From Ustilaginoidea virens (taxonomy: Eukaryota; Ascomycota; Sordariomycetes; Hypocreales; Clavicipitaceae), in assembly GCF_000687475.1 (NCBI RefSeq), contig NC_057317.1:5146501-5210500 (forward strand): DNA of 64,000 nt, in the 5' to 3' direction. The translations under genes were made by a program, and so were the position numbers. Numbering within the stretch: position 1 is the stretch's first letter; the number at the start of each line of letters is the position of its first letter. This document shows positions 1 through 60,293 of this stretch, piece after piece. The notes under the pieces are model-generated. The model had not been told where the DNA came from, ran no database searches, and worked only from the letters and a program-made list of their open reading frames with translations.

Positions 1-578
1 TCCTTCCTATTTCGTATAATTTATACGCCTAGGAAGAAAGAAGCCGGACCGCGGTCTTCTATAGTATAGACCTTATGAAATTTCCTTTTTAGCTGGTTAA
101 TATAAGTTATATTTAGACCAACTAATAGGCAATCGTCAACATAAGTGACGATAAAAGTACTGGTTTGCTTATTATAAAAGACAGCAGCATCAGAAGCTAA
201 AGGTAAGAAGCCTTTACTAGAAATTAGGTCTTTTAGCTGGTATTGCTATTCGCGGGGTGCTTATTTTAGCCCGTATAGGGCCTTTTTTAGTAAAATAGCT
301 TGCTTAACAGAGGGATTAAAGCCGGCTTCTTTAAGTAAAGTTAGTAGCCGTTATCGTTGAATATCAGACCAAAGCTTGCTATCGCTATTAGTTAGCAGTA
401 AGCTTTCTGTAAATTCAAGAAATCCGTTAGGAATATCTATATAAATGGTCTTAGAAAGCTCGCTATTTAGAAAGGCGCCTATAAAGTCGATTTGCTCTAT
501 TTCCCAGTTATTACTAGCAGCCAAGGCCAGTATAACCCTCTAGGTAGGTGGAATAGAGGTAGAAGCATAGGTATACTA
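1..578 (-). pseudogene. Copia-I copy 1 pol, distal reverse transcriptase
   Basis: This continues, in the same frame, the open reading frame ending at 576. The stop at 576-578 is TAG where copy 2 has CAG (Gln in GKDFQHTYA), a RIP-type C-to-T change. The palm motif YVDD is intact at 132-143, followed by copia RT residues conserved with copy 2 (FLGVQI region at the window edge). RNase H and the 3' LTR lie outside. Apart from scattered Gln/Trp-to-stop changes the catalytic core looks preserved, which makes this copy less damaged than copy 2, where the motif reads YIND. Confidence 0.85.
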
Positions 579-2084
579 AAAGTCCTTTCCTTCGACTTGC
601 ATAAAGCCCTTTACTACTAATCTAGCCTTATATTTTATAGGCTGATTATTAGCATCCTTTTTAACCCGAAAAACAGGCCTATTGCGTATAATTTTCCTAT
701 CAATAGAAACGCTAGACTTAGGAATAAATTGGAAGACTTTAGTATCCAAAAGCTGCTCAAATTCCTTAAATAGTGCCTTTATCCAAAGGTCTTTTTCAGG
801 GCTTCGTAGCACATCCTTCCAGCTATTAGACGTACCATCAGGGGCCTTTTTAGCTAGCTTACGCTTAGCTGCATAGCAGGAATCCCATATTAGGTGGTAT
901 AAATCCTGATTAGGGAATAAGTCGGTAGGGCTAGTAGGGTTGGTAGGGCTAGCAGGTACAGCAGGGCTAGCAGGGCCAGCAGAGCCAGTAGGGCTAGCAA
1001 GGTCGGCAGGAGTAAGGCTAGTAAGGATATCTATAAGGTTATCCTTTGCAGTAGCCGGGGACTGTAGTATAGTACCTTCTGACTTAGGAAGGTAATCCAC
1101 GGTGGCATTAGTGTTAGTAATATCATCCGGGGTAGCATTAGTAATGCTAATAAAATTAGTAGGGTCCGGCATGCTTTCCAGGTCATCCGGTATAGTATTA
1201 GTAATGCTAGTAAGGTTAGTGGGGTCAGAAATGCTTTTAAGGTCATCCAGTAAAATAACAGGTTCTCTGCTAGATACCCCCTCTGAACCTGTATTTTGCC
1301 CTCTATGAAAGTCTCCTTCTAGGCTACTAGAAATAGGGCCTATACCTTCATTTTGATGGATAAAGGTAATAAAGGTTGTTTTAGTAATATCCTTCTTCTT
1401 TAAAGGGTAAACTAGGTAGGTATTAGCACAAGTCTTTTTAAGTAGCTGAATACCTATATGCCCTAGCCGTATATGCCAAATGCCGGCTAATTGTAATAAC
1501 TTCTGATATTCTGTATCAGCAGCTATATGGGCAGGAGTAGGGCTAATAGCCACTACGGGATTTTCGCTAGTCGTAATAGCGGGCTCTTTGCTAGTCGTAA
1601 TAGCGGGATCTTTGCTAGTCGTAATAGCGGGAGAGTTAGTAGTAGGGCTAGTAGCCTCTACAGGTTCCTTACTAATCGTAGTAGTAGGAACAGGGATAGT
1701 AGGGCTAGTAGCCTCTACTAGTTCCTTACTAGTTGCAGTAGTAGGAACGGGGGTAATAGTGGTATCCTCAGAATCACTATAATCAGCAGGGTTAGTAGGG
1801 CTGGGGACCTCTACTGTTATACTATTAGTAATAGTATAGTGGCTACAAGGTTGATGTAGCAGTGGTGTGTCTATTCCTTTCTGTGGAAGGAAAAAGCCGT
1901 ATTTTTCAAAGTTAAAAATGCCGATACATTTACGGCTTGCTAACCAAAGCTGATTTTTAATTAGTACCCCTTTAGTGGCATAGTGCTTTACACCGCTAAT
2001 GATGTTAATATCCAAGGTAGGAATATATAGTGCATTCTTGAGCTCTATAATACCCCATTTGGTGGGATTCACACCCTGTAGCAC
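576..2084 (-). CDS. Copia-I copy 1 pol fragment: protease end, pre-integrase, linker, RT start; integrase deleted
   Basis: A 502-residue open segment. Residues 1-60 are the region after protease (TKWGIIELKNALYIP). About 75-190 is a low-complexity linker of repeated TSKEPVEATSPT-type units. About 200-225 is the zinc-binding start of integrase (IWHIRLGHIGIQLLKKTC). It then jumps directly to the post-integrase linker at YLVYPLKKK. From about residue 400 it enters reverse transcriptase (KDLWIKALFKEFEQLLDTK, then RVKKDANNQPIKYKARLVVKGF). The full-length relative has 253 further codons at the jump, including the DDE catalytic core, so this protein cannot be an active integrase. The initial Met is probably internal: the true start is the gag ATG at 2730-2732, separated by one stop that replaces a Trp codon. 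Confidence 0.85.
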   Translation of the reverse strand: MLQGVNPTKWGIIELKNALYIPTLDINIISGVKHYATKGVLIKNQLWLASRKCIGIFNFEKYGFFLPQKGIDTPLLHQPCSHYTITNSITVEVPSPTNPADYSDSEDTTITPVPTTATSKELVEATSPTIPVPTTTISKEPVEATSPTTNSPAITTSKDPAITTSKEPAITTSENPVVAISPTPAHIAADTEYQKLLQLAGIWHIRLGHIGIQLLKKTCANTYLVYPLKKKDITKTTFITFIHQNEGIGPISSSLEGDFHRGQNTGSEGVSSREPVILLDDLKSISDPTNLTSITNTIPDDLESMPDPTNFISITNATPDDITNTNATVDYLPKSEGTILQSPATAKDNLIDILTSLTPADLASPTGSAGPASPAVPASPTNPTSPTDLFPNQDLYHLIWDSCYAAKRKLAKKAPDGTSNSWKDVLRSPEKDLWIKALFKEFEQLLDTKVFQFIPKSSVSIDRKIIRNRPVFRVKKDANNQPIKYKARLVVKGFMQVEGKDF

Positions 2085-2102
2085 AGTAAATCGTGCTGTG
2101 CC

Positions 2103-2732
2103 CTAACTAATAGGGGAAATAGGGCCACCACCAGTGGTAATTATAGGCTTATCACCCTTCTTAAAATGGTGAAAAGTGGTGAAATGCTTCTTATCATTAA
2201 CAATATGACAAGTGGAGCCTGTATCGTAAAGGAGGGCATTCTTAGGGGTCCTACCGCCTGATTTAGCACTATAGCTTATATCAGTGGATATAGTGGAAGA
2301 AGAATAGGATATATTAGTATCCTGGGTATTATAATTGCCTTTAATAAAGGACTCGACATCTTGCTGTTTGCTGCTAGAGTCATGTTTCTTCTTCTGTTGC
2401 TGCTTCTTTTTCCTATTATTAGTAGAATTATTCTTGCTATTATTAGTAGAAGCGGCATTAGTAGTAGTAGGGCTAGTAGCCTCTACTGGGTCCTTAATAG
2501 TCGTAATAGTAGGACCGGGGATAGTAGGGCTAGTAGCCTCTACTAGTTCCTTACTAGTTGTAATAGTAGGAACGTTACTATTTTGCCTACTAACTAGGCC
2601 TTGTATAAGGATAGTTAAGGTGTTCATCTGGGACTTTATATCGTCCATATCCAGCTGTAGTTGTACAGTAAGATCAGTTTTAGAGTTGGAATTCAAAGTG
2701 GCCTTATAAGTAGAAGGCCTAGACTGTGCCAT
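2103..2732 (-). CDS. Copia-I copy 1 gag-protease, capsid region replaced
   Basis: A 209-residue open segment starting at a good ATG (MAQSRPSTYKATL). Residues 1-50 match the gag N-terminus of copy 2, including LQLDMDDIKSQMNTLT. Residues about 51-95 are two units of the TSKELVEATSPT-type repeat that otherwise belongs to the pol linker. A Lys/Gln-rich basic stretch follows, then the aspartic protease motif YDTGSTCHIV near residue 170. The roughly 300-residue capsid domain present in copy 2 is absent, so assembly would need Gag in trans. The terminating TAG is a Trp codon (TGG) in copy 3, so gag and pol were originally one frame. Confidence 0.85.
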   Translation of the reverse strand: MAQSRPSTYKATLNSNSKTDLTVQLQLDMDDIKSQMNTLTILIQGLVSRQNSNVPTITTSKELVEATSPTIPGPTITTIKDPVEATSPTTTNAASTNNSKNNSTNNRKKKQQQKKKHDSSSKQQDVESFIKGNYNTQDTNISYSSSTISTDISYSAKSGGRTPKNALLYDTGSTCHIVNDKKHFTTFHHFKKGDKPIITTGGGPISPIS

Positions 2733-3514
2733 TATAGTGGTTAAAAGTCGTTAAAAATGATGCCAATAGCTGTAAGAACAGAGGAATAATTAGCAGAAGA
2801 ATAACTAGCTAAATAGCTAGCTAAATAGTCGAGTAACTGGTAAAATAGCTAGTAAAATAGTCGAATAACTAGTCGGATTGCCAGTATATATAGTGGCTAG
2901 TAGCCTACTATAAAAATAGCCGCAGATTATAGCGGCCGGTCTCAGTATAAAAGCACAGATGCCGTAGGCGTTGTGCAAGTCCGTATTATAGCGTTGGTAT
3001 TCAAGGTGCTTATATGGTGCCGTAATATAAAGGTGCCGTAAGTGCCGTAGGTGCTATAGGTGCCGTAGGTGCCGTGGGTGCCGTGGGTGCTATAGGTGCC
3101 GTAATATAAAAGGTGCCGTAAATGCCATACCAAAAGTGCTATAAGTGGGAGAGTATAACAGGTGCCGTATAGTGCAGTGGGTGTCGTGCACTAGAGGCAA
3201 AAGTGTTATACAGTAGTATAGTGTGGTAGATATCACACTATAAAATCCGTAGGTGCCGTAGGTTACGCCGAAAGTAACGTAAGGTTATGCTAAAAGTGCC
3301 GTAAGGTTACGCCGTAAGTTGCCGTTAGGTACGCCGTTGATTGCCGCAGGGTAATACCGTAGGTAATAAGGGTAAGCCAAAGGTGATAATAGGTAAGCCG
3401 AAGTTAATAAGGGTAAGCCGAAAATACCAAAGGATAGCTATATTAGTAGTACTAATAAGCAAAAGAGACCAAAGGGTGAACACAAAAAGGTAGGGTTAAA
3501 ACAAAGAAGTAAAA
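2733..3514 (-). repeat. Copia-I copy 1 leader with 9-bp tandem array
   Basis: Untranslated leader between the primer-binding site and gag. From about 2940 to 3420 it holds a degenerate array whose unit on the plus strand is GGTGCCGTA (sense strand TACGGCACC), with variants in GGTGCCATA and GGTTACGCCG. The same array sits at the same place in copies 2 and 3. Short open frames through it (Gly-Thr-Tyr repeats) follow from the 9-bp period and are not taken as genes. Confidence 0.8.
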
Positions 3515-3529
3515 CCCGGGCTCATAACC
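3515..3529 (-). other. Copia-I copy 1 primer-binding site (half-tRNA iMet type)
   Basis: Sense-strand GGTTATGAGCCCGGG directly abuts the LTR end. Its complement contains GGGCTCATAACC, the anticodon arm of initiator tRNA-Met with the CAT anticodon. The element therefore appears to be primed by an internal tRNA fragment rather than by a tRNA 3' CCA end. Confidence 0.8.
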
Positions 3530-4284
3530 TATTGCAATTCTCAAGGTCACTATAAAAACAGAGCCTTACTAGCTAGCTAGATGGCACAAGACTGTCTGCG
3601 ACCTGTAAACTAATCTTAGTATAAATACTAGATTTTTCACCAAGTCCTAAGGCTATACAAGTGCTATAAAGCAAGGCAAGTGTAAAGGCAAGGCAAATAC
3701 AAGATAACCAGAAAACGCAGGGAAGGTAAGAAGTTAAAAGGCATATAGTGCATTAACAGACTCGATTATGCTACCCTTCTGCTATCTAGAAAGAAAGGGG
3801 AAAGCTATCCTATATATATACGAAGAAGGGGTGGGCCTAGGCATCCAGGGTAGCCAGTAAGAAAGCTCCCCGTAATGCTCGCTATGCCACGTATATGATA
3901 CGTCAGCAACCCCGCTATATCCGGCCTTTCCAACCACCCCAACCACCGCACTAGTAACCAACCACCACGCTAGTGACTAGCCACCAAGCTAGTGACTAAC
4001 CACCACGCTAGTGACTAACCACCACACTAGTAGACTAGCCACCACGCTAGTAGGCAGCCACCACGCTAGTAGGCCACCACGCTAATTTAGCAATGCCACA
4101 CCTTTTTAACAAGGCCTACCTTACTTGATATACAGTAAATAATCTACTGAAAATCCTTAAGGTAAAAGGCAAAGGCCTAAGGTAAGACTACTATAAGTCT
4201 AAGAGGCGGTATAAGGGCCAGAAAGTTAGTAAGCCAGTAGGGCATTAGGCCAGCAGCCTAGTAGGCTACTATAGGATTTTAACA
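3530..4284 (-). repeat. Copia-I copy 1 5' LTR (755 bp)
   Basis: Sense ends are TGTTAAAATCC and GAATTGCAATA, the latter from ..CAACA by a C-to-T change. Near-copies lie at 26496-27305, 33192-34001, 34906-35656 and 39374-40124. At about 3945-4085 it contains an internal minisatellite with CTAGTGACTAACCACCACG-like units. Different repeat counts appear to account for most of the length difference between 751 and 810 bp. Confidence 0.92.
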
Positions 4285-14720: not shown

Positions 14721-16709
14721 ACCCCTCACCCCTATAGTATCTTTACTAGTAACTTTAATATCTACTACTCTATATAGGACCGCTTTTATAAAACCTCTTT
14801 AGGCTATAATACCCTCTTTAAACTCGTATTAAAATAGAAGCTAACCCTTATAATACTATAGGGAGAGATAACTAGATAAGCCCTAGGCAAATATAATAGT
14901 ACTATCGACTATATATAAAGTATAAGAGACCTTAATATAGAGTTTATAGGGGCGGCAGATATTATTAGATCCGATTATATCCCTTAGGTAATTTAGGTAG
15001 AAATAAGACTAAATAAGTTTTATAAACTACTGCCGATATACTAATAGAAGAAACTTAATAAAATCCTCGTTTAAGCTAAAGCTGAAGTTAGGATAGCTAT
15101 CCTATATGCTTTACACCTATCTTAATCCCCTATAGAGATCGATACTTTTACTTAATAGCTTACGACCTAACTATAGGCTATTGCTAATATTACTACGCCT
15201 AAGAGAGAAACTAAACCGCTAGGAAGGGCCCTATAGTAGACCTAGGAAATATAGTCGGCTATAATAGCGGCCCGTAAGGCTATAAGAAATTAGAGAAAAG
15301 ACTATATTAGCCTTAACTAGTTAATAGTATAAAGAGTAGAGATAAACTAAATTAAGGTTATCTAATAGGAAAGGCGCTAGATATAGAGAGAAGCCGTTAA
15401 TAAGGCTATAATAAAAAACGCGGACTTATAGTCCCTAGAGAAATAGGCCTAGATACGCAATAGACTCCCCTTAGAATTAAAAGAAATCCCTATACTTTTT
15501 TAAGGTAAAAGAGCCTAAATATAGGAAGTAAAAATATATTCTTCTAAAGTAGAAATATTAGTAAAAAGATTCTTCCCGATATTAATAGCTACCTTTAATA
15601 ATATCCTAGACCCGCGATTCCCCTACCTTACCGATATAATATTCGCCCCTAAAAATAAATTCTCTAAAATAGATATTTATAATGCCCTCCGATATATAGC
15701 CAGCTAGAAAGTATTAGGCCCCGATAGTATACCGGCGGGATTCCTTAAAGCCTATAGAGAACCGGTTTTTAGAGCCCTAATAATACTCCTTAACGCTATA
15801 TATAGAACTAGTTATTACCTAATATAATTCTAGGAAGCTAAAGTTATAATATTAAGAAAACCTAGTAAAATACCTAAAGAATACTAAAGAGTAGGAGCCT
15901 AGCGCCTAATATCCCTCTTAAACCTCTTTAGTAAAATCTTTAAAGCTATAATAATAAAAAGATTAATAATAATTATAGAAGAATAGAAATTACTATTAGA
16001 TATGCAAATAGGTAATAAAGTAAATAGATCAATAGATATAGTGCTATATACCCTAGTAGAAGCAGTTAAGGCCACTTAGTAATATAAAGGAATAGTATCG
16101 CTATTATAATTAGATATTTCTATAGCATTCGATACTATTAATTATACTAAGCTTATATACCTCCTCTTCTAAAGTAGCGCCCCCTAATAGATAGTAGCCT
16201 AGGTCTAAGGCTTTATTATATTATATTTAGCTAAAATCTTCTTTAAAGGCTAACCTACCTAAAGATTTTTAATTATAATAAGAGTGCCCTAAGGCTCCCC
16301 GATCTCTTTAGTCTTTTTCCTCTTCTATATTATATCTTTATACTATAGACTTAAAGTAGTAGATAACTTGCTAACCTTAGGATTCGCAGATAATACTAAT
16401 ATAATTATATATAGCAAAATAATATAGGATATAGTTATAATCCTTTCGAAAGTATAGAAGATCTATAAAAAATAGTCGGCAGAGGCTAGATTGAAATTTA
16501 ACCTAATAAAAAGTAAGCTAATATATTTCACTAAATAGTACCGATTAGATACTATAATAATACGACTCGGTAATACGACTATCTAGCTTATATAATATAC
16601 TTAATTTCTTAGAGTAGAGATTAACTGTAAATTTAGCTAGACTAACTATAGGGCCCGAATAATAAAAAAGCTAGAAAAGTAAAAGCTTGCCCTTATTGCT
16701 CTAGCGGCC
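14721..16709 (+). pseudogene. LINE-A copy 1 ORF2, part 2 (rest of endonuclease, reverse transcriptase)
   Basis: Resumes the endonuclease (SNFNIYYS, from a GDFN-H-H strand, near 14745-14775). It then crosses a linker with arginine-rich helices (15180-15460) and the reverse transcriptase: fingers near 15690-15830 (GFLKAYREPV), palm LDISIAFDTIN near 16110-16140, RVPQGSP near 16285. The catalytic motif is F-A-D-N at 16383-16394, its second Asp lost by G-to-A. It is cut at 16709 by Copia-II copy 1 with the 5-bp TSD CGGCC. Confidence 0.82.
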
Positions 16710-17264
16710 TGTCAAACGTTTTCGCCTGCTAAGATAATGCAGTATGCGAAGGATAAAGGCAGTGGAATGGTAAAATCGCAGTAAGGTAAAGTAACGGCAC
16801 AGATAAGATACGAGACTAAGGCGTAGGGACAATCTGATGTGCATTAATTCTGCATACTTGCTTGCATGCATACATCCATACATTCCTTCCCACTATTTGG
16901 GTAGGAATATCTAGGGATTTAAATACATAATATTCCAACATAGAATATCCCTAGTGAAATCAATCTGACGTAAATATCCTGACCATACTGTGATATCATA
17001 GATATGTGGCGAAATGTGCATTTGTAGTGCATCGAGATTTGCGACGATAAAGTAGTGTGATCAATTTGTAATGCATCATACATTTGCGCGTAAGGGAATG
17101 TGTGTAAGTATTGGGTACTCAACTTTGCTAGCAGCCGCCATATAAATATAAGTACTGAATACTTAATACCTTTTTCAATCTGATGATGCGGCGATGCGTA
17201 AGAATTGTCGGCGATTAATATCCAAAAATAATAAAATAAAATAACAAATAATTTCATTCTGATA
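16710..17264 (-). repeat. Copia-II copy 1 3' LTR (555 bp)
   Basis: Sense start TATCAGAATG is TGTCAGAATG after one G-to-A change; the sense end is GTTTGACA. It is preceded on the sense strand by a G6 polypurine tract (17267-17272). It is nearly identical to 23001-23555. Confidence 0.92.
16919..17257 (-). CDS. LTR-located ORF, 112 residues, unknown
   Basis: Starts with ATG close to the LTR 5' end and reads MKLFVILFYYFWILIADNSY, a hydrophobic N-terminus resembling a signal peptide, then a mixed region (HTTLSSQISMHYKC) and a hydrophobic end (LISLGIFYVGILCI). The same frame is open in the partner LTR (23210-23548) and in the LTR of Copia-II copy 2 (59414-59755). I recognise no family. It lies in the expected U3 part, so normal element transcription would place it at the RNA 3' end. 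It may be chance openness in an AT-rich LTR. Confidence 0.3.
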   Translation of the reverse strand: MKLFVILFYYFWILIADNSYASPHHQIEKGIKYSVLIFIWRLLAKLSTQYLHTFPYAQMYDALQIDHTTLSSQISMHYKCTFRHISMISQYGQDIYVRLISLGIFYVGILCI

Positions 17265-17290
17265 TACCCCCCTAGATAGGCTAGAATATA
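17265..17290 (-). other. Copia-II copy 1 polypurine tract
   Basis: On the sense strand a G6 run (CTAGGGGGG, at 17267-17275) followed by TA precedes the 3' LTR start, the expected site for plus-strand priming. Confidence 0.75.
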
Positions 17291-17301
17291 GCTCTATCTA
17301 G

Positions 17302-22987: not shown

Positions 22988-23000
22988 CCGGGCTCATAAC
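22988..23000 (-). other. Copia-II copy 1 primer-binding site (half-tRNA iMet type)
   Basis: Sense GTTATGAGCCCGG directly follows the LTR end TGACA. It matches the complement of the initiator tRNA-Met anticodon arm, as in Copia-I. Confidence 0.8.
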
Positions 23001-26495: not shown

Positions 26496-27305
26496 TGTTA
26501 AAATCCTATAGTAGCCTACTAGGCTGCTGGCCTTATGCCCTACTGGCCTACTAACCTTCTGGCCCTTATACCGCCTCTTGGACTTATGGTAGTATTATCT
26601 TAGGCCTTTGCCTTTTACCTTAAGGATTTTCAGTGGATTATTTACTGTATATCAAGTAAGGTAGGCCTTATTGAAAAAGGTGTGGCATTGCTAAATTAGC
26701 GTGGTTGCCTACTAGCGTGGTGGCGGCCTACTAGCGTGGTTGCCTACTAGCGTGGTGGCGGCCTACTAGCGTGGTGTGGCATTGCTAAATTAGCGTAGTG
26801 GCCTACTAGCGTGGTGGCTAGTCCACTAGTGTGGTGGTTAGTCACTAGCGTAGTGGCTAGTTACTAGTGCGGTGACTAGTTACTAGTGCGGTGGTTAGGG
26901 TGGTTAAAAAGGCCCGATATAGTGGGGCTGCTAACGTATTATATACATGGCAAAGCGAGCATTACGAGGAGCTTTCTTACTAGCTACCTTGGATGCCTGG
27001 GCCCACCCCTCCTTCGTATATATATAGGATAGCTTTCCCCCTTCTTTCTAAATAGTAGAAGGGTAGCACAATCGAGTCTGTTAATACACTACATGCCTCT
27101 TAACTTCCACCTTCCCTGCGTTTCTAGTTATCTTATATTTGCCTTGCCTTTACACTTGCCCTGCTTTATAGCACTTGTATAGTCTTAGGACTTGGTGAAA
27201 AATCTAGTATTTATACTAAGATTAGTTCACAGGTCGCAGACAGTCTTATGCCATCTAGCTAGCTAGTAAGGCTTTACTTTTATAGTGACCTTGAGAATTG
27301 CAACA
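26496..27305 (+). repeat. Copia-I copy 2 5' LTR (810 bp)
   Basis: Ends TGTTAAAATCC and GAATTGCAACA. An internal minisatellite with unit CCTACTAGCGTGGTGGCGG and shorter forms spans about 26697-26895, longer than in copies 1 and 3. Confidence 0.93.
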
Positions 27306-27320
27306 GGTTATAAGCCCGGG
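27306..27320 (+). other. Copia-I copy 2 primer-binding site
   Basis: GGTTATAAGCCCGGG immediately after the LTR. This is the initiator tRNA-Met anticodon-arm complement with one G-to-A change (GGTTATGAGCCCGGG in copies 1 and 3). Confidence 0.8.
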
Positions 27321-28047
27321 TTTTTACTTTTTTGTTTTTACCCTACCTTTTTATATTCACCCCTTGGTCTCTTTTGCTTTTTAGTATTACTAATAGCTAT
27401 CCTTTAGTATCTTCGGCTTACCCTTATTAACTTCGGCTCACCTATTATTACCTTGGCTTACCTTTTGTTACCTACGGCATTACCCTGCGGCAATTAACGG
27501 CGTACCTAACGGCAACTTACGGCGTAATCTCACGGCACTTTTAGCGTAACCTTACGTTATTTTCGGCGTAACCTACGGCACCTACGGATTTTATAGTGTG
27601 ATATCTACCACACTATACTACTATATAACACCTTTACACCTAGTGCACGATACCTACTGCACTATACGGCACCTGTTATACTCTCCCACTTATAGCACCT
27701 TTAGTACAGTACTTACGGCACCTTTTATATTACGGCACCTATAGCATCCACGGCACCCACGGCACCTACGGCACTTACGGCACCTTTATATTACGGCACT
27801 ATATAAGCACCTAAAACACCAACGCTATAATACGGACTTACACAACGCCTTCGGCATCTGTGCCTTTATACTGAGACCTACCGCTATATTCTGCGGTTAC
27901 CTTTTATAGTAGGCTACTAGCCACTATAACTACTGGCTATCTAGCTAGTTATTCGACTATTTTGCTAGCTATTCAGCTAGTTATTCCTCTGTGTTTACAA
28001 CTATCGGCACCATTTTTCAACGGAATTTTAAACCTTTTTTGCCCACA
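27321..28047 (+). repeat. Copia-I copy 2 leader with 9-bp tandem array
   Basis: Non-coding leader. From about 27465 to 27870 it carries the TACGGCACC array and related GGCGTAACC units, in the same position as in the other two copies. Confidence 0.8.
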
Positions 28048-29290
28048 ATAGCAGAATCAGGGTCTTCTACCTATAAGGTCCCTGAATCCGATACTGAAGC
28101 TGATACTAATGCATAACTACAGCTAGATATAGACGATATAAAGTCCCAGATGAATATACTAACTGACCTTATACAGGGCCTAATTAGTAGGCAAAATAAC
28201 GACACCCAGGCTACCCAGGCTACTAATAAGAAGCCTACTAAAGCCACTAAAGCTGGACCTTCCACTAGGACGACTACCACTAAAGATAATAATAATAGTG
28301 AAGCTGACGTTATGGAAATCGACCAACCTTCTACCCCTGTAAAATATAAGGGTAAAGAACCTATTTATACCACAACAGCACCAACAACAACTATTACCAA
28401 CCAAATTAGTGATGGGGCTATTAAGGAATTAGCTAAGACTGCCAACCGCTTTAAGGAGTCTCAGAAGCTAAAAAGTCCCTATAATTTCGACCAGTGGAAG
28501 CAGGCCCTTATAATACAACTTAGGGCCTTTAAAATAGCTAACTTTGTTAACGACCCCTCTATAGCAAGGCATTTTGATGAGTCTGAGCAGGCACTTCTAC
28601 TACTAATGCTAAAGAATAGCTATAGTGAAGAAGCTGCAGAGGCTATAGACTGGTATAATGACCCAAAGGAAGCCTATCTTTTGCTAGTGGCCCAGTACTG
28701 CCACTCACCAGAAGTACAGCGGGCATACTTATATCCTACCTTTTACACCCTTATATTTACCGGTTATAAAGGCACTTTGGAAGCTTTTAATAGCGAATTT
28801 AATAGCTATATTTCTCGCCTTAGAATTCTAGGTTCCAAGATCGACTCTTTCGACCAAGTTAACCAGTATCTTTGGGCTGTAGAGGGGGTATTTACCTGCT
28901 GGATGGAACGCCAACGCTCTATGATTAGGGCTTATAGCGCCTAAGGTATTATCAATAGCAGCAAATTTAACTTCCAGTATTTTATGGTTAACCTACTAGA
29001 AGAACAGCGTTCTAAAGGGTCTAATAAGGTGGCTGCTAATAATAACTCTAAGCAGCTTAAGGCTTCCAAGGACCCTAAAAAAGGGTCTGCTAATGCCGCT
29101 TCTACTACTAATAATAGCAAGAATAATTCTACTAATAATAGGAAAAAGAAGCAGCAATAGAAGAAGAAACAAGACTCTAATAATAGCAGCAAATAGCAAG
29201 ATGTTGAGGCCTTTATTATAGGCAACTATAATACTCAGGATATTAATATATCTTATTCTTCTTCCTCTATATCCACTAATATAAGCTATA
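28048..29290 (+). pseudogene. Copia-I copy 2 gag
   Basis: The original start is at 28048, where ATA replaces the ATG of copies 1 and 3. An early TAA replaces a Gln near 28113. The open part 28150-28944 carries a Thr/Lys-rich N-terminal region (about residues 20-75). The capsid domain follows (LKSPYNFDQWKQALIIQLRA, SEEAAEAIDWYNDPKEAY, SEFNSYISRLRILGSKIDSF), a retrotransposon gag fold. Beyond the stop at 28944 the frame continues with KVAANNNSKQLKASKDPKK and a basic Asn/Lys tail. This is the capsid missing from copies 1 and 3. Confidence 0.88.
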
Positions 29291-31250
29291 GTGCTAAATC
29301 AGGCGGTAGGACTCCTAAGGATGCCCTCCTTTACGATACAGGCTCCACTTGTCATATTGTTAATAATAAGAAGCATTTCACCATTTTTCACCACTTTAAG
29401 AAGGATGATAAGCCTGTTATTACTACTGGTGGTAGCCCTATTTCCCCTACTGGTTAGGGCACGGCACGATTTACTATGCTACAGGGCGTTAATCCCACCA
29501 AATGGGGTATTATAGAGCTCAAAAATGCCCTATATATTCCTACCTTAGATATTAATATTATTAGCGGTATAAAGCACTATGCCGCTAAAGGGGTATTAAT
29601 TAAAAATCAGCTTTAGTCAGCAAGCCGTAAATACATCAGCATTTTTAACTTTAAAAAATACGGCTTTTTCCTTCCATAGAAAGGAATAGACATACCACTA
29701 CTATATCAACCTTACAGCCATTATACTGTTACTAATAGTATAACAGTAGAGGTCCCCAGCCCTACTAACCCTGCTGATTATAATAATCCTGAGGATACTA
29801 CTATTACCCCCGTTCCTACTACTGCGACTAGTAAGGAACCTGTAGAGGCTACTAGCCCTACTACTAACTCTCCCGCTATTATGACTAGCGAAGAGCCCGC
29901 TATTACGACTAGCGAAAATCCCGCTATTACGACTAGCAAAAATCCCGTAGTGGCTACTAGCCCTACTCCTGCCCCTATAGCTACTAATACAGAATACCAG
30001 AAGCTATTACAGTTAGCCGGCATTTGGCATGTATGGCTAGGGCATATAGGTATTCAGCTACTTAAAAAGACTTGTGCTAATACCCCTGGTCTTCCTAACC
30101 TTAATAAGGTTAAAGATGCTGATTTTCGCTGTCTAGCCTATATACAGGCTAAGAAGGTTAGAAGACCTTCTAAAGATACGATACCTAATCCAGCTAAATG
30201 CCTGGATATTATAGAAGGTGATACTTTTGCTATATCACCTATGCCATATAACAAACGACCTGTTGCCCTTATATTAGTGGACAGAAAATCTCGATTCCGC
30301 TGGCTTTACTTACTGCCTAATAGGGAAGGCACTGTTGTATTTAAAGCATTACAGAGCTTTATATAGAGCCTAAAGGTCAGATATGGCAAAACGCCTGTTG
30401 AATTCCACTATAATGGTGGAAATGAAATCAACAAAATGCTTAGTGATTAGCTTGTTGAACAGGGCATAACGTTTAATACATCTTGCCCTTATATTCACGA
30501 ATAAAATGGCCTAGCTGAACGGTCCATTAGGGTTATAGCTGATAGGCTACGTGCTACTATGGCCTGGTCAAGGCTACCATCTAACCTCTGGTCTGCTGTA
30601 ATTACTGGCGTTGTTATGCTAGTAAATATAATAGCTGTTACTAACAGACCTTCTAGCCCCTATCAGGAGCTATTAAAGGATTATAACTAGATAACACCGG
30701 AGCACTACCCTGACCTTATTAACCTTAGGGCTATTGGAGCAGCTATTGAGGTGCTTATACCACACGAAAAGCGTGTAAAAAGCCGCAAATTAGCGCCCCG
30801 TACCGAGCCTGGTAGGCTCCTTGCCACTCTAGGTAATAATACCTACCTAGTCTACCTTCTAAAGAAGAAGGTTATTACTAAAATAACTTTTATCACCTTT
30901 ATCCACCAAAATGAAGGAATAGGCCCTATTTCTAGTGGCCTAAAAGGAGACTTTCACAGAGGGCAAAATACAGGTTCAGAGGGGGTATCTAGCAGAAAAC
31001 CTGCTATTTTACTGGATGACCTAGAAAGCATTCCTGACCCTACTAACTCTACTAACCTTACTAGCATTACTAACACTAATGCTATACCGGATGACCTAGA
31101 AAGCATGCCGGACCCTACTAATATTACTAGCGTTACTAATACTAATGCTACCCCAGATGATATTATTAACACTAATGCTACCGTGGATTACCTTCCTAAG
31201 TCAGAAGGTATTACGCTACAGTCCCCGGCTACTGTAAAGGATGACCTTAT
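29291..31250 (+). pseudogene. Copia-I copy 2 pol: protease and integrase
   Basis: The aspartic protease motif DTGS is at 29335-29346 (YDTGSTCHIV). The linker at 29800-29960 holds one TSKEPVEATSPT unit and several ITTSENPA units. The integrase zinc finger is near 30020-30150 (WHVWLGHIGIQLLKKTC; the last Cys pair reads C-L-A-Y). In the core the first Asp is at 30280-30282 (LVDRKSRF), the second is Asn at 30412-30414 (YNGGNE) and the Glu is at 30517-30519 (GLAERS). Interior stops are at Gln/Trp positions. The 759 bp between the two TAATACC copies (30078-30084, 30837-30843) are the part deleted in copies 1 and 3. Confidence 0.88.
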
Positions 31251-33069
31251 AGATATCCTTACTAGCCTTATTTCTGCCGACCTTGCTAGCCCTACTAGCT
31301 ATACTGGCCCTGCTAGCCCTACCAGCCCTACCGACTTATTCCCTAACCAGGATTTATACCACCTAATATGGGATTCCTGCTATGCAGCTAAGCGTAAGCT
31401 AGCTAAAAAGGCTCCTGATGGTACGCCTAATAGCTGGAAGGATATGCTTCAAAGCCCTAAAAAAGACCTTTGGATAAAGGCATTATTTAAGGAATTTAAG
31501 CAGCTATTGGATACTAAAGTCTTCTAATTTATTCCTAAGTCTAGCATTCCTATTGATAGGAAAATTATACGCAACAGGCCTGTTTTTCGGGTTAAAAAGG
31601 ATGCCAATAATCAGCCTATAAAATATAAGGCTAGATTAGTTGTTAAGGGCTTTATGCAGGTCGAAGGAAAAGACTTCCAGCATACCTATGCTTCTACCTC
31701 TATCCTACCCACCTGGAGGGTTATACTGGCTTTGGCTATTAGTAATAACTGGGAAATAGAGCAGATCGACTTTATAGGCGCCTTCCTAAATAGCGAACTT
31801 TCTGAGACTATTTATATGGATATTCCTGATGGATTCCTTAAATTTACAGAAAGTTTACTAACTGATAGCAAGCTTTGGTCTAATATATAGCGCCAACGGC
31901 TACTAACTTTACTTAAAGAAGCTGGATTTGACCCTTCTATTAAGCAAGCTATTTTATTAAAGAAGGCCCTATACGGACTAAAATAAGCACCCCGCGAATA
32001 GCAACACCGGCTAAAAGACCTGATTTCTAGTGAAGGTTTTTTACCTTTAGCTTCTAATACTACCGTCTTTTATAATAAACAAACCAGCACTTTTATCGTT
32101 ACTTATATTAACGATTGCCTATTAGTTGGTCCAAATATAACTTATATTAACCAGCTAAAAAGGAAATTTCATAAGGTCTATACTATAGAAGACTGCGGTC
32201 CGACTTCCTTCTTCCTAGGCGTATAGATTATATAAAATAAGAAAGAAGGTCTCTTATAGCTACACCAAGCCCAATTTATAGCAGAGGTTCTAGCTAAATT
32301 CGGCTTATAGGATACTAAACCTTAGCTTATTCCACTTCAACCAGGGATTCTAAATAAATCTAGTGGAAAAGACCTTAGCCCTACTAATTAAAGCCTTTAT
32401 TAGAGCCTTACTGGCACTATAATGTGGCTTATGATGATGACTAGACCCGACCTAGCATTTCCTACTCAATACCTCTTTCGGTTTATATCTAAGGCAACTA
32501 ATATGCATCTAAATGCTGCAAAAGGCAGCTTTAGCTACCTTAAAGGCACTGAGAACCTAGCTATTTGCTTTAGTACTACTAAAAGCAACCAACAGCCTAT
32601 TATAACCGCTTATTCTGATAGCGATTTTGCTGGCTGTAAAGAAACCTCTAAATCTACTGGAGGCTTCCTTACTACTATTAATAGTAGTCCTATTAGCTGG
32701 CGTTCTAAGCGAGCCTCTTTAGTAGTGCTATCTACTTTAGAAGCTAAATCAGATGTATTACTTAAGACTATCCGTAAGATATAGTGGCTTTCTAACCTTT
32801 GTAAGGAGCTGGAAATTAATATTTTGCGCCCTATACCGCTATACTGCGATAATCAGGGCTCCATCTCGAATTCTAATAACTCTAATTAGCATACTCGCAC
32901 TAAGCATACTCTATTAAAATTCCGGTATATTAGAGAGTAAGCCTAGCTAGGCTTAGTTAAAATAACCTACTTACCTACTAATAGTATGCCTGCTGACGGT
33001 CTTACTAAGCCACTGCCGGGCCCTAAATTTACTAGGTTCCGCGAGTTACTAGGCCTTAAGGCCTGCTAA
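31251..33069 (+). pseudogene. Copia-I copy 2 pol: reverse transcriptase and RNase H
   Basis: RT starts near 31360 (LIWDSCYAAKRKLAKKAPDG) and passes KARLVVKGFMQVEGKDFQHT (31630-31690), QIDFIGAFLNSELSETIYMD (31760-31820) and the catalytic motif Y-I-N-D at 32104-32115 (YVDD in copies 1 and 3). RNase H has YSDSDFAGCKETSKSTGGFL near 32610-32670, SKRASLVVLSTLEAKSD, and the terminal ADGLTKPL-like stretch near 32995. It ends at the natural stop TAA 33067-33069. The open pieces 31654-31890 and 32422-32784 share the gag frame. Confidence 0.9.
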
Positions 33070-33191
33070 CTTATACTAACATATTTTTACTAAGGTTTTT
33101 TCCTATGTTTTTCCTTAGCACTTTTTACTGCATTTTCTTTCCCTATCCTTTACACGATTAGCTTGCTACTACAGTAGCTAATCAGAGGGGG
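33070..33191 (+). other. Copia-I copy 2 3' untranslated spacer and polypurine tract
   Basis: A 114-bp spacer followed by AGAGGGGG at 33184-33191, directly before the LTR. This is the expected plus-strand primer site. Confidence 0.8.
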
Positions 33192-34001
33192 TATGAAAAT
33201 CCTATAGTAGCCTACTAGGCTGCTGACCTTATGCCCTACTGGCCTACTAACCTTCTGGCCCTTATACCGCCTCTTGGACTTATGGTAGTATTACCTTAGG
33301 CCTTTGCCTTTTACCTTAAGGATTTTCAGTGGATTATTTACTGTATATCAAGTAAGGTAGGCCTTGTTGAAAAAAGTGTGGCATTACTAAATTAGCGTAG
33401 TTGCCTACTAGCATGGTGGCGGCCTACTAGCGTGGTTGCCTACTAGCGCGGTAGCGGCCTACTAGCGTGGTGTGGCATTGCTGAATTAGCGTAGTGGCCT
33501 ACTAGCGTAGTGGCTAGTCCACTAGTGTGGTGGTTAGTCACTAGCGTGGTGGCTAGTTACTAGTGCGGTGACTAGTTACTAGTGCGGTGGTTAGGGTGGT
33601 TGAAAAGGCCCGATATAGTGGGGCTGCTGACGTATTATATACGTGGCAAAGCGAGCATTACGAGGAGCTTTCTTACTGGCTACTTTGGATGCCTAGGCCC
33701 ACCCCTCCTTCGTGTATATATAGGATAGCTTTCCCCCTTCTTTCTAGATAGTAGAAGGGTAGCACAATCGAGTCTGTTAATATACTACATGCCTCTTAAC
33801 TTCTACCTTCCCTGCGTTTCTGGTTATCTTATATTTGCCTTGCCTTTACACTTGCCCTGCTTTATAGCATTTGTATAGTCTTAGGACTTAGTGAAAAATC
33901 TAGTATTTATACTAAGATTAGTTCACAGGTCGCAGACAGTCTTGTGCTATCTAGCTAGCTAGTAAGGCTTTGCTTTTATAGTGACCTTAAGAATTGCAAT
34001 A
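33192..34001 (+). repeat. Copia-I copy 2 3' LTR (810 bp)
   Basis: Starts TATGAAAATCC (TG changed to TA) and ends GAATTGCAATA. It has the same length as the 5' LTR and differs from it by scattered transitions. The minisatellite is at about 33400-33600. Confidence 0.92.
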
Positions 34002-34905: not shown

Positions 34906-35656
34906 TATTGCAATTCTCAAGGTCACTATAAAAGCAGAGCCTTACTAGCTAGCTAGATGGCACAAGACTGTCTGTGACCTGTGAACTAATCTTAGTATAA
35001 ATACTAGATTTTTCACCAAGTCCTAAGACTATACAAGTGCTATAAAGCAGGGCAAGTGTAAAGGCAAGGCAAATATAAGATAACCAGAAACGCAGGGAAG
35101 GTAGGAGTTAAGAGGCATATAGTGCATTAACAGACTCGATTGTGCTGCCCTTCTACTATCTAGAAAGAAGGGGGAAAGCTATCCTATATATACACGAAGG
35201 AGGGGTGGGCCCAGGCATCTAAGGTAGCTAGTAAAAAAGCTCCCCGTAATGCTCGCTTTGCCACGTATATAATACGTTAGCAGCCCCACTATATCGGGCC
35301 TTTTTAACCACCCTAACCACCGCACTAGTAACTAGTCACCGCACTAGTAACTAGCTACCACGCTAGTGACTACCCACCACACTAGTAGACTACCCACTAC
35401 ACTAGTGGACTAGCCACTACGCTAGTAGACCCACCACGCTAATTTAGCAATGCCACACCTTTTTAACAAGGCCTACCTTAAGGCCTACCTTACTTGATAT
35501 ACAGTAAATAATCCACTGAAAATCCTTAAGGTAAAAGGCAAAGGCCTGGGTTGGTAAGACCACCGTAAGTCTAAAAGACGGTATAAGGGCCAGAAGGTTA
35601 GTAGACCAGTAGGGCATTAGGCCAGCAGCCTAGTAGGCTACTATAGGATTTTAATA
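34906..35656 (-). repeat. Copia-I copy 3 3' LTR (751 bp)
   Basis: Sense start TATTAAAATCC follows the polypurine tract CAGAGGGGG (35657-35665). The outer end is the complement of GAATTGCAATA. It is near-identical to 39374-40124. Confidence 0.92.
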
Positions 35657-35778
35657 CCCCCTCTGATTAGCTACTGTAGTATCAAGCTAATCGTCGTATA
35701 AAGGATAGGAAAGGAAAATGTAATAAAAGTGCTAAGGAAAAAGCATAAGAAAAAAACCTTAGTAAAAGTTAGTATAAG

Positions 35779-38280
35779 TTAGCAGGCCCTAAGACCTAGT
35801 AACTCGCGGAACCTAGTAAATTTAGGGCCCGGCAGTGGCTTTATAAGACCGTCAGCAGGCATACTATTAGTAGGTAAGTAGGTAATTTTAACCAAGCCCA
35901 GCTGGGCTTGCTCCCTAATATACCGGAATTTTAATAGCGTATGCTTAATGCGAGCATGCTGATTAGAGTCATTAGAATTCGAAATGGAGCCCTAATTATC
36001 GCAGTATAACGATATAGGGCGTAAAATATCGATTTCCAGCTCCTTACAAAGGTTAGAAAGCCACTATACCTTACGGATAGTCTCAAGTAATGCATCAGAT
36101 TCAGCTTCTAAAGTAGATAGTACTACTAAAGAGGCTCGCTTAGAACGCCAGCTAATAGGACCACTATTAATAGTAGTCAAGAAGCCTCCAGTAGATTTAG
36201 AGGTTTCTTTACAGCCAGCAAAATCGCTATCAGAATAAGCGGCTATAATAGGCTGTTGGTTGCCTTTAGTAAAGCAAATAGCTTAGTTCTCAGTGCCTTT
36301 AAGGTAGCTAAAGCTGCCTTTTGCAGCATTTAGATGCACATTAGTTGCCTTGGATATAAACCGAGAGAGGTATTGAGTAGAAAATGCTAGATCGGGCCTA
36401 GTCATCATTATAAGCCACATTATAGTGCCAGTAAGGCTCTGATAAAGGCTCTGATCAGTAGGGCTAAGGTCTTTTCTACTAGATTTATTTAGAATCCCTG
36501 GTTGAAGTGGAATAAGCTAAGGTTTAGTATCCTGTAGGCCGAATTTAGCTAGGGCCTCTGCTATAAATTGGGCTTAGTGCAGCCACAATAGACCTTCCTT
36601 CCTATTTCGTATAATCTGTACGCCTAGAAAGAAGGAAGCCAGACCGCGGTCTTCTATAGCATAGACCTTATGAAATTTCCTTTTTAGCTAATTGATATAA
36701 GTTATATTTGGACCAACTAATAGGCAATCGTCAACATAAGTAACGATAAAGGTACTGGTTTGCTTATTATAAAAGACGGCAGCATCAGAAGCTAAAGGTA
36801 AAAAGCCTTCATTAGAAATTAGGTCTTTTAGCCGATGTTGCCATTCGCGGGGTGCTTGTTTTAGCCCGTATAGGGCCTTCTTTAGTAAAATAGCTTGCTT
36901 AATAGAGGGATTAAAGCCGGCTTCTTTAAGTAAAGTTAGTAGCCGTTACCATTGAATATCAGACCAAAGCTTGCTATCAGTTAGTAATAAGCTCTCTGTA
37001 AATTCAAGGAATCCATCAGGAATATCTATATAAATAGTCTCAGAAAGCTCGCTATTTAGAAAGGCGCCTATAAAGTCTTCTGACTTAGGAAGGTAATCCA
37101 CAGTGGCATTAGTGTTAGTAATATCATCCGGGGTAGCATTAGTAATGCTAGTAAAATTAGTAGGGTCCGGTATGCTTTCCAGGTCATCCGGTATAACATT
37201 AGTGTCAGTAATATTAGTAAGGTTAGTAGAGTTAGTAGGGTCAGAAATGCTTTCTAGGTCATCCAATAAAATAGCAGGTTCTCTGCTAGATACCCCCTCT
37301 AAACCTATATTTTGCCCTCTATAAAAGTCTCCTTCTAGGCCACTAGAAATAGGGCCTATACCTTCATTTTGGTGGATAAAGGTAATAAAGGTTGTTCTAG
37401 TAATATCCTTCTTCTTTAAAGGGTAAACCAGGTAGGTATTAGCACAGGTCTTTTTAAGTAGCTGAATACCTATATGCCCTAGCCGTATATACTAAATGCC
37501 GGCTAATTATAATAGCTTCTGATATTCTGTATCAGCTGCTATAAGGGCAGGAGTAGGGCTAGTAGCCACTACAGGATTTTCGCTAATCGTAATAGCGGGC
37601 TCTTTACTAGTCGTAATAGCAGGAGGTTGGGTGGTAGGGCTAGTAGCCTCTACAGGTTCCTTACTAGTTGCAGTAGTAGGAACGGGGGTAATAGTAGTAT
37701 CCTCAGGATCACTATAATCAGCAGGGTTAGTAGGGCTAGGGACTTCTACTGTTATACTATTAGTAACAGTATAATGGCTATAAGGTTGATGTAGTAGTGG
37801 TGTGTCTATTCCTTTCTATAGAAAGAAAAAGCCGTATTTATCAAAGTTAAAAATGCCGATGCATTTACAGCTTACTGACTAAAGCTGATTTTTAATTAGT
37901 ACCCCTTTAGCGGCATAGTGCTTTACACCGCTAATAATGTTAATATCCAAGGTAGGAATATATAGTGCATTCTTAAGCTCTATAATACCCTATTTAGTGG
38001 GATTAATGCCCTGTAGCACAGTAAATCGTGCTGTGCCCCAACCAGTAGGGGAAATAGGACTACTACCAGTAGTAATTATAGGCTTATCATCCTTCTCAAA
38101 ATAGTGAAAAGTGGTGAAATGCTTCTTATCATTAACAATATAACAAGTAGAGCCTGTATCGTAAAGGAGGGCATCCTTAGGGGTCCTACCGCCTGATTTA
38201 GCACTATAGCTTATATTAGTGGATATAGTGGTAGAAGAAGAGGAATAGGATATATTAATATCCTGGGTATTATAATTGCC
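35779..38280 (-). pseudogene. Copia-I copy 3 pol, lacking integrase and N-terminal RT
   Basis: From the minus-strand 5' side: protease (near 38155), pre-integrase zinc start (near 37470), the shared integrase deletion junction at 37435-37441, the linker (37085-37266), then the private junction near 37077, where YLPKSE runs straight into DFIGAFLNSELSETIY. The missing part corresponds to about 580 bp of copy 1, including RT fingers. The palm YVDD remains (near 36725-36737), as does RNase H through the natural stop. It cannot encode active RT, yet the frame is kept. Confidence 0.87.
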
Positions 38281-38679
38281 TATAATAAAGGACTCGACAT
38301 TTTGCTGTTTACTGCTATTATTAGAGTCCTATTCCTTCTTTTTTTGCTGCTTCTTTTTCCTATTATTAGTAGAATTATTCTTGCTATTATTAGTAAAAGC
38401 GGCATTAGTAGTAGTACGGCTAGTAGCCTCTACAGGGTCCTTGCTGTTCATATTAGTAGGACCGGAGATAGTAGGGCTAGTAGCCTCTACCAGTTCCTTG
38501 CTAATTATAATAGTAGGAACGTTACTATTTCGCCTACTAACTAAGCCTTGTAAAAGGATAGTTAGGGTGTTCATCTGGGACTTTATATAGTCCATATCTA
38601 GCTGTAGTTGTACAGTAAGATCAGCTTTAGAGTCGGAATCCAAAGTGGCCTTATAAGTGGAAGGCCTAGACTGTGCCAT
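38281..38679 (-). pseudogene. Copia-I copy 3 gag N-terminus with pol-linker patch
   Basis: Starts at ATG 38677-38679 (MAQSRPSTYKATLDSDSK), 52 residues of gag N-terminus, then the ISKELVEATSPTI and SKDPVEATSRTTT patch (about 38405-38525) in place of capsid, then the Asn/Lys-rich tail. The open segment ends at 38329 with TAG in place of a Gln codon and the frame continues into protease. Confidence 0.85.
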
Positions 38680-39358
38680 TATAGTGGCTAAAAGTCGTTA
38701 AAATAGTGCTAATAGCTGTAAGAACAGATAAATAACCTGCTAAATAGCTAGCAAAATAGTCGAGTAACTAGCTGGACAGCTAGTAAATATAATAGCTAGT
38801 AGCCTACTATAAAATATAACCGCAGAGTATAGCGGCAGGTCTCAGTATAAAAGCACAGATGCCGTAGGCGTTATGCAAGTCCGTACTATAGCGTTGGTGT
38901 TTAAGGTGCTTATATAGTGCCGTAATATAAAGGTGCCGTAAGTGCCGTAGGTGCCATAGGTCCCGTAATATAAAAGGTGCCGTAAGTGCCGTACCAAAGG
39001 TGCTATAAGTAGGAGAGTATAACAGGTGCCGTATAGTGCAGTAAGTATCGTGCACTAGGTGTAAAAGTATTATACAGTGGTATAGTGTAGTAGATATTAC
39101 ACTATAAAATCCGTAGGTGCCGTAGGTTACGCCGAAAATAATGTAAGGTTACGCTAAAATGCCGTGAGGTTACGCCGTAAGTTGCCGTAGGGGTGCGCCG
39201 TTGATTGCCGCAGGGTAATGCCGTAGGTAACAAAGGGTAAGCCAAAGGTGATAAGAGTAAGCCGAGGATACCAAAGGATAGCTATATTAGTAGTACTAAT
39301 AAGCAAGAGAGACCAAGGGGTGAACACAAAAGGTAGGGTAAAAACAAAGAAGTAAAAA
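38680..39358 (-). repeat. Copia-I copy 3 leader with 9-bp tandem array
   Basis: Leader equivalent to 2733-3514. The GGTGCCGTA-type array spans about 38840-39250 and is shorter than in copy 1. Confidence 0.78.
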
Positions 39359-39373
39359 CCCGGGCTCATAACC
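39359..39373 (-). other. Copia-I copy 3 primer-binding site
   Basis: Sense GGTTATGAGCCCGGG adjoining the LTR, unmutated relative to copy 1. Confidence 0.8.
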
Positions 39374-40124
39374 TATTGCAATTCTCAAGGTCACTATAAA
39401 AGCAGAGCCTTACTAGCTAGCTAGATGGCACAAGACTGTCTGTGACCTGTGAACTAATCTTAGTATAAATACTAGATTTTTCACCAAGTCCTAAGACTAT
39501 ACAAGTGCTATAAAGCAGGGCAAGTGTAAAGGCAAGGCAAATATAAGATAACCAGAAACGCAGGGAAGGTGGGAGTTAAGAGGCATATAGTGCATTAACA
39601 GACTCAATTGTACTGCCCTTCTACTATCTAGAAAGAAGGGGGAAAGCTATCCTATATATACACGAAGGAGGGGTGGGCCCAGGTATCCAAGGTAGCCAGT
39701 AAAAAAGCTCCCCGTAATGCTCGCTTTGCCACGTATATAATACGTCAGCAGCCCCACTATATCGGGCCTTTTTAACCACCCTAACCACCGCACTAGTAAC
39801 TAGTCACCGCACTAGTAACTAGCCACCACGCTAGTGACTACCCACCACACTAGTAGACTACCCACTACACTAGTGGACTAGCCACTACGCTAGTAGACCC
39901 ACCACGCTAATTTAGCAATGCCACACTTTTTTAACAAGGCCTACCTTAAGGCCTACCTTACTTGATATACAGTAAATAATCCACTGAAAATCCTTAAGGT
40001 AAAAGGCAAGGGCCTGGGTTGGTAAGACCACCGTAAGTCTAAAAGACGGTATAAGGGCCAGAAGGTTAGTAGACCAGTAGGGCATTAGGCCAGCAGCCTA
40101 GTAGGCTACTATAGGATTTTAACA
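39374..40124 (-). repeat. Copia-I copy 3 5' LTR (751 bp)
   Basis: Sense start TGTTAAAATCC (plus-strand GGATTTTAACA at 40114-40124), followed by the TSD AGGTT. Its minisatellite is at about 39780-39910. Confidence 0.92.
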
Positions 40125-58926: not shown

Positions 58927-59406
58927 GCGACTGCGCCATCTAGGCGGTATATTATACGGTATATTATTTCTTCTTTAATAAAAAAGGTAGTATATCGCTC
59001 GGGCATTATATTGATAAGCGACTGCGCTATTTAGGCAGTACATTATGCAGTATATTATTTCTTCTTTAACAGAAGAGGTAGTATATCGCTCGGGCATTAT
59101 ATTAATAAGCGACTGCACCATCTAGGTAAACGGTATATTATTTTTTCTTCAATAGAAGAGGTACTAAGCGGTATATTATTTCTTCTTCAATAGAAGAGGT
59201 AGTATATCGCTTAGGCATTATACTAATAAGCGACTACACCATCTAGATAGACGGTATATTATTTCTTCTTTAATAGAAAAGGTACTAGGCGGTATATTAT
59301 TTCTTCTTTAATAGAAATAATAGTATATCGCTCGGGCATTATATTAATAAGCGACTATGCCATCTAGGCGGTATATTATTTCTTCTTTAACAGAAGGGGT
59401 AGATAA
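58927..59406 (+). repeat. Helitron 3' tandem array with hairpin-forming units
   Basis: Units starting GCGACTGCGCCATCTAGG begin at 58927, 59018, 59109, 59230 and 59351, with lengths 91, 91, 121 and 121 bp and a last unit truncated at 59406. The 121-bp units carry an extra internal duplication of about 30 bp. Each has a small inverted repeat of the form TCTTC..GAAGA. The array follows the end of the helicase frame and is cut by the Copia-II LTR. Confidence 0.8.
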
Positions 59407-60277: not shown

Positions 60278-60293
60278 ACAGTTATAAGCCCGG

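Follow-up and report, generated by a model that had tools for sequence, protein, structure and literature searches.

LTR retrotransposons are thought to help their deleted relatives freely, as Ty1 does by packaging in trans. In rice (Dasheng/RIRE2) and soybean (SNRE), elements with shared LTRs and cis signals are supplied in trans and reach many copies, and most of the coding capacity of Dasheng and SNRE is missing. BARE-2 represents a gag-deficient type of Copia element, while TR-GAG elements are defined by keeping gag and losing pol, and LARD and TRIM elements by having no coding capacity. In the defective RNAs of plus-strand viruses, in-frame deletions are favoured when translation in cis matters. 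For Ty1, two papers report that deletion derivatives need no more than the element ends for efficient movement in trans, that defective elements move as well as competent ones, and that as much as 5 kb can be taken out of the interior (PMC3945221, PMC4974528). Moreover, incomplete pol genes are described as common in fungal LTR elements (PMC3248453), and for this reason a missing integrase alone is not new; Onsen Copia elements are reported to recombine pairwise at high frequency in bursts (PMC5668417).

In this work we analysed a window of 64,000 nucleotides in the genome of Ustilaginoidea virens (C2:5146501-5210500; 37.16 Mb, 8 contigs), inside which lie three related Copia elements, namely copies 1, 2 and 3. 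The family to which they belong is like Dasheng/RIRE2 and SNRE in its shared LTRs and cis signals, its probable supply in trans and its many copies, and differs from Dasheng and SNRE in keeping a continuous frame across the deletions. As in BARE-2, there are copies that bear integrase and keep pol without a capsid, whereas here a linker-like repeat replaces gag and further deletions are added. The in-frame deletions recall the defective RNAs of plus-strand viruses, although we are dealing with an LTR retrotransposon and not with virus RNA. The family is not a TR-GAG, as the gag core is lost and parts of pol are retained, nor a LARD or TRIM, as its frames reach 1037 aa. It resembles the mini-Ty1 donors in that deleted elements would be moved by proteins in trans; however, those donors are engineered and no open frame is reported as needed for them (PMC4974528), whereas the family here is natural and keeps its frame. 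As reported for Onsen, family members recombine pairwise during bursts (PMC5668417), but here the deletions themselves are shuffled between copies. Trans-mobilised deletion derivatives are already known, and the consistent retention of the frame is the unusual part; a literature search by titles and the beginnings of abstracts, with most subscription papers outside its reach, found no in-frame non-autonomous LTR elements among the papers listed.

The reading that we prefer, with a probability of about 0.72, is that these elements form a non-autonomous Copia family which is mobilised in trans and recombines, and in which the copies that spread retain an open frame. The family would descend from a single-frame gag-pol element that lost internal segments one after another; the proteins of complete relatives would package, reverse transcribe and integrate the deleted RNAs, with LTR ends, primer-binding site and polypurine tract shared by both kinds of element; template switching between co-packaged RNAs would shuffle the deletions with LTRs and RT segments; and an open frame, by being translated, would help an RNA to propagate though enzymes are missing or changed. 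The trans supply, the template switching and the open-frame advantage are what we infer from the observations below. If the deletions that spread in a natural family preserve the frame, this would suggest that translation still acts as a filter on the movement of RNAs.

The integrase deletion in the window and in the genome

The features of the three elements are as follows.

1..4284, minus strand: copy 1, AB type (gag replacement plus integrase deletion), partial, continuing past the window start
3530-4284, minus strand: 5' LTR of copy 1
1419..1425, minus strand: integrase-deletion junction of copy 1, with a single TAATACC
576..2102, minus strand: 508-aa open frame spanning the integrase junction of copy 1
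2465..2578, minus strand: gag-core replacement segment of copy 1, a repeat related to the protease-integrase linker
26496..34001, plus strand: copy 2, full-length structure with integrase, target-site duplication (TSD) ATATC
26496-27305 and 33192-34001, plus strand: LTRs of copy 2, 96.4% identical over 804 bp
30078..30843, plus strand: integrase segment of copy 2 including both TAATACC repeats, of which 759 bp are absent in copies 1 and 3
34906..40124, minus strand: copy 3, triple-deleted (gag replacement, integrase deletion, RT N-terminal deletion)
37435..37441, minus strand: integrase-deletion junction of copy 3
37077, minus strand: junction of the RT N-terminal (561-bp) deletion of copy 3
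36946..37491, minus strand: 181-aa frame of copy 3, open over the integrase and RT junctions
38412..38525, minus strand: gag-core replacement segment of copy 3

The gag replacement is common to copies 1 and 3, and copy 3 has the 561-bp RT deletion in addition. The LTRs of copy 3 are 98.7% identical over 749 bp and its TSD is AACCT in element orientation, while the 3' LTR of copy 1 is truncated and lies outside the window (about 603 of 755 bp matched). The first-pass annotation of this window, made from the letters alone, had described a 759-bp in-frame loss of the integrase core between two short repeats, and its structural part holds in full: TAATACC occurs twice in copy 2 (30078-30084 and 30837-30843, plus strand) and once each on the minus strand in copies 1 (1419-1425) and 3 (37435-37441), which lack 759 bp, that is 253 codons; the 508-aa frame of copy 1 runs open across the junction; and the missing codons contain the integrase residues D, D and E as aligned with Ty1 integrase (PDB 7z0h). 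An insertion in copy 2 instead of a deletion in copies 1 and 3 was rejected, because the stretch aligns with Ty1 integrase and is a conserved integrase segment. In all eight integrase-bearing copies checked, the ends of the stretch share seven bases (five copies) or six (three copies). Splicing was also rejected as a source of this deletion, as the junction sequences read offer no GT...AG placement.

For an element with complete pol we refer to L023 (L-numbered names denote family loci fetched from the genome), whose domains run in the order Pol_BBD, gag_pre-integrs, rve, SH3_retrovirus and RVT_2, with rve, gag_pre-integrs and SH3_retrovirus each slightly under the Pfam curated cut-off. In L023 the 759-bp stretch starts inside the zinc finger, so that the H-x4-H pair would be kept and the CxxC pair lost, and continues past D, D and E until about two-thirds of the way through the SH3-like match. 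The assignment to Ty1/Copia agrees with the pol order (protease, integrase, RT with RVT_2), with the alignment of Ty1 integrase, and with 5-bp TSDs in copy 2 and in nine of the 13 junction copies inspected.

Far from being limited to two insertions, as had been supposed, the deletion is spread over the genome. With a 71-base junction probe the junction was spanned by 40 of 40 scored matches, these being the best 40 of 289 candidates. A 34-base junction pattern with at most three mismatches was found in 71 places on contigs 1 to 6 and the reversed pattern, used as control, in none, so that the junction is not due to chance; the intact left boundary was found in 218 places, again with none for the backwards control. 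The frame was read in 35 of the 71 junction copies and 34 were compared for indels; 30 integrase-bearing loci were fetched and 3.7 kb of each was read.

Six shared deletions and the movement of deleted copies

Altogether six large deletions shared between copies were seen. In deletion A the gag core is replaced by a repeat of about 57 bp, with a net loss of 774, 717 or 660 bp relative to copy 2; the repeat is coding, resembles the protease-integrase linker repeat and varies in copy number between copies. Deletion A' is a longer gag form (1437 or 1494 bp), seen together with C in some integrase-bearing copies; B is the 759-bp integrase loss; C removes 561 bp of the RT N-terminus in many junction copies; D removes 711 bp of the RT palm; and E removes 231 bp of RNase H. 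Genome-wide pattern counts are 118 for A, 52 for C, 13 for D and 12 for E. As a side observation, deletion E (12 places) can be placed as GT...AG and may derive from a spliced and then reverse-transcribed RNA.

The name of an integrase-less subfamily, given in the first pass, understates these losses, since the gag core is also gone and the RT N-terminus is absent in 40 of the 71. Deletion A is seen in 13 of 14 aligned junction copies, the fourteenth beginning inside the replacement repeat, and none of these 14 shows a gag core. As for C, 40 junction places have it nearby and 31 do not show it; 12 of the 52 C places lack the junction pattern. The listing of intact boundaries covers 100 of the 218 places; eight of the 12 are among these, and the other 92 show no C. 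Every one of the four possible combinations of B and C is thus found. Besides, three loci (L030, L036 and L037) have lost gag and protease together, keep integrase and carry the RT N-terminal deletion; the columns that they share with L051 are free of stops, although the integrase-side frame is broken in L030 and L036.

That the deleted elements kept moving, as had been proposed, is borne out by their target sites. Matching 5-bp TSDs were found in nine of the 13 junction copies inspected at both ends (copy 3, L048, L050, L051, L052, L053, L056, L063 and L071), and all nine differ; in copy 1, L049, L055 and L066, one end is truncated, was not found or lies outside the stretch, so that of the two TSDs which the first pass gave as different, those of copies 1 and 3, only that of copy 3 is readable. 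The two LTRs of a copy differ at 0 of 721 positions in L063 and 0 of 720 in L071, and both of these copies are triple-deleted, so essential proteins are absent from recently inserted elements, as in a non-autonomous derivative. Because elements without capsid and integrase core, many of them also without RT fingers, inserted recently, the proteins must come from elsewhere; the suggestion that integrase is supplied from outside is likewise supported, as junction copies without an integrase core are newly inserted. The frame of L051 gave no match to rve.

The source of the proteins would most simply be the complete relatives. Among the 30 integrase-bearing loci are five without the gag replacement whose frame stays open over the whole, or almost the whole, of the 3.7 kb read. 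In ten of ten elements checked, deleted and complete, AGAGGGGG precedes the 3' LTR, and LTR starts and primer-binding site are the same except for point changes; eight further integrase-bearing 5' ends have both LTR ends in five cases, only the primer-binding site in two and neither in one. The primer-binding site, GGTTATGAGCCCGGG, is complementary to the anticodon arm of tRNA-Met, for which there are two matching genes; we take this to be the initiator tRNA, with half-tRNA priming as in Drosophila copia.

Reading-frame retention and its possible causes

Each of the six shared large deletions seen (A, A' and B to E) has a length divisible by 3. The chance of six in six is about 1 in 700 if they are independent, which may not hold for A and A' as they share a left end; the deletions were not chosen by phase, and the list covers the fetched loci. 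Among smaller changes, 45 of 49 distinct coding indels are in phase (34 junction copies against L051, merged within 40 bp), and two of the four out-of-phase ones sum to -57; outside the coding region of the same 34 copies, the in-phase share is 4 of 37 for the 5' LTR with the leader and 2 of 21 for the 3' LTR. Many of the coding indels may be inherited from functional elements. The distance from a gag marker to the junction has the same phase in 48 of the 49 copies that were paired and for 25 of 26 distinct lengths (100 of 118 gag marker places were used, and 22 of the 71 junction copies are unpaired), that from junction to C in 38 of 40, and that from junction to D in 9 of 10.

The young spreading copies have the open frame in common, and several of their enzyme domains are missing or changed. 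L051, L056, L063, L066 and L071 are stop-free and without indels over at least 3021 of 3111 columns, the frame of L051 being a single one of 1037 codons, and L051, L002 and L007, which lie 3-5% apart, all have it open. A homologue search (7989 candidates scored, 52 matches) found nothing resembling the triple-deleted protein: the best homologues come from Phyllachora maydis and bear rve, the first of them with 47% identity across 40% of the query, and one match of similar length without rve annotation (P0012, 1039 aa) is 32% identical over 31%.

The record of stops counts against the preferred reading. Ten of the 35 junction copies read have no stop in the covered part, and 25 have at least one; and the depletion of stops on internal branches is modest, 30 being observed against 38.2 expected, with 18 of 400 shuffles as low. 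With C>T and G>A left out, these numbers become 0 against 2.6 (16 of 400 shuffles). For 14 copies picked for few stops the figures are 4 against 13.8, which are biased by that choice. RIP-like change is strong: of 955 changes on the terminal branches of 28 copies, 684 are C>T or G>A, and 404 of these 684 lie at CpA/TpG.

Frame retention may be due to selection, though chance or youth may also lie behind it. The strongest competitor to our reading, which we consider improbable and yet have to take seriously, is that these are ordinary trans-mobilised deletion derivatives whose frame is open through youth and exchange with complete elements, the in-frame deletions being luck. It is in keeping with the youngest copies being 99.7-100% identical (over the aligned frame, identity is 100.0% among L051, L056 and L063, and L066 and L071 are at least 99.7% identical to each other and to these three), with the exchange of RT segments with complete copies, and with the possible descent of many indel differences from functional elements; non-autonomous LTR derivatives that have autonomous partners are known, among them Dasheng and SNRE, both named in PMC3701649. 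However, luck has then to account for six in-frame deletions of six, at odds of about 1 in 700 if independent and with A and A' sharing a left end; the indels in the gag-replacement repeat, which is absent from complete elements, are in frame too, although the length of its unit is itself a multiple of 3; and the open frame persists in copies 3-5% apart.

As to how an open frame would act within the preferred family, the simplest mechanism may be that translation aids RNA stability or entry into particles. The stricter version is that an RNA must be translated in cis for its stability or packaging, so that only deletions keeping a long frame spread while the enzymes are free to decay; we put it forward tentatively and hold it to be rather unlikely. 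If true, it would mean a translation check on RNA mobility in an LTR retrotransposon, unlike Ty1, and the 71 junction copies are a ready data set for testing such a filter. A need for an open frame is indeed unexpected under the Ty1 model, because Ty1 deletion derivatives are reported to move efficiently with the element ends only.

It is also conceivable that the truncated polyprotein has a job of its own, for example as a competing Gag fragment by which the complete element is tuned, and that the protein itself is selected; the open frame of L051 does retain the Gag N-terminus and a basic linker. Here N/S was estimated on branches against a context-matched expectation, with C>T and G>A left out. 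On internal branches it is 0.10 in the RT/RNase H half, as a selected protein would have it, but the upstream values are 0.52 (protease part) and 1.25 (integrase remnant plus linker); terminal branches give 0.31, 0.76 and 0.75, respectively. Moreover, the RT conservation is explicable by exchange with complete copies, from which the constraint could partly be inherited by recombination. Pairwise N/S of the protease from all single changes is 0.74 in 14 junction copies, 0.35 in eight gag-replaced integrase-bearing copies and 0.24 in 11 complete copies, a set of values in which RIP-hit copies may inflate that of the junction set; from transversions only it is 0.26, 0.13 and 0.25. As the transversion-only values are alike in junction and complete copies, relaxed protein constraint is not firm, and the value of 0.26 speaks for a selected polyprotein. 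N/S of copies selected for having no stops is biased by that selection and was discarded. Against a selected polyprotein, the protease motif is altered in the youngest burst, with DIG in five of five open young copies. The 30 readable junction copies have DIG in 13, DTG in 15 and NTG in 2; DIG is found in three of nine gag-replaced integrase-bearing copies; and the 17 readable complete copies have DTG in 16, NTG in 1 and DIG in none. The change from DTG to DIG would probably impair the protease. On the whole we think a selected polyprotein unlikely.

Origin of the deletion and exchange between elements

The first-pass annotation had held that the integrase deletion arose once. Its main line stands, as 30 of 33 readable junction copies share a left-flank allele at -103 that is found in 0 of 17 readable integrase-bearing copies; a second origin of the L043-like minority haplotype is possible. 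To the right of the junction there are at least three haplotypes, two of them close to ones in integrase-bearing copies, as would be expected had the 759-bp deletion arisen several times at the same 7-bp repeat. The -103 allele argues against such recurrence, and so do the group I right-flank alleles (+15, +20, +22, +35), which occur in 10 of 33 junction copies and in 0, 0, 1 and 0 of 30 integrase-bearing ones, so that we regard repeated origin as quite doubtful. One main origin followed by exchange between elements, with possibly a second origin for the minority haplotype, would fit these flanks.

In the LTR tree the junction copies do not group as had been predicted: copies 1 and 3 are not sisters, and the complete L023 and L028 have LTRs that fall within the triple-deleted set, both with moderate support. 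That copies 1 and 3 are not sisters is the outcome which the first pass had named as refuting its claim. In this tree L026 is unreliable (its LTR start was not found, non-LTR sequence is included and the branch is very long), as is L012 (239 bases only), and L019 was dropped with neither end found. Since LTRs recombine, the tree is uninformative on a single origin, and recombination between elements explains the position of copies 1 and 3 better than two independent deletions. In the protease tree the gag-replaced and junction copies mostly cluster; the exceptions are L039, L006, L055, L005 and L014, which are placed with complete copies, and L026, a complete copy placed with gag-replaced ones. 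In the RT tree L018, which is gag-replaced, joins the complete L031 with zero branch length, L033 adjoins L023, L025 and L029, and L014 branches with zero distance from the base of the L022 group. With deletions acting as exchangeable modules, the usual reading of LTR trees breaks.

Ordinary reverse transcription should give two identical LTRs. L051 and L056, whose TSDs make them independent insertions, show one and the same mismatch between their LTRs at six markers (522, 523, 536, 577, 657 and 690); the 5' LTR of L051 agrees with L063 at five of six markers, and its 3' LTR agrees with L071 at six of six. Segmental duplication instead of insertion might be suspected from this shared pair and from the complete identity of L051, L056 and L063 over the aligned frame, but it is hardly credible and already contradicted, as every one of them has its own matching 5-bp TSD and the flanks differ.

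Besides these elements, the window contains a second LTR family with two copies (16709-23553 and 59406-64000; LTR of 554 bp, 98.4% identical), which is probably another Copia element because a frame at 62679-63113 matches gag_pre-integrs. An ARAGORN call of tRNA-SeC at 59115-59206, adjoining an LTR, is probably spurious.
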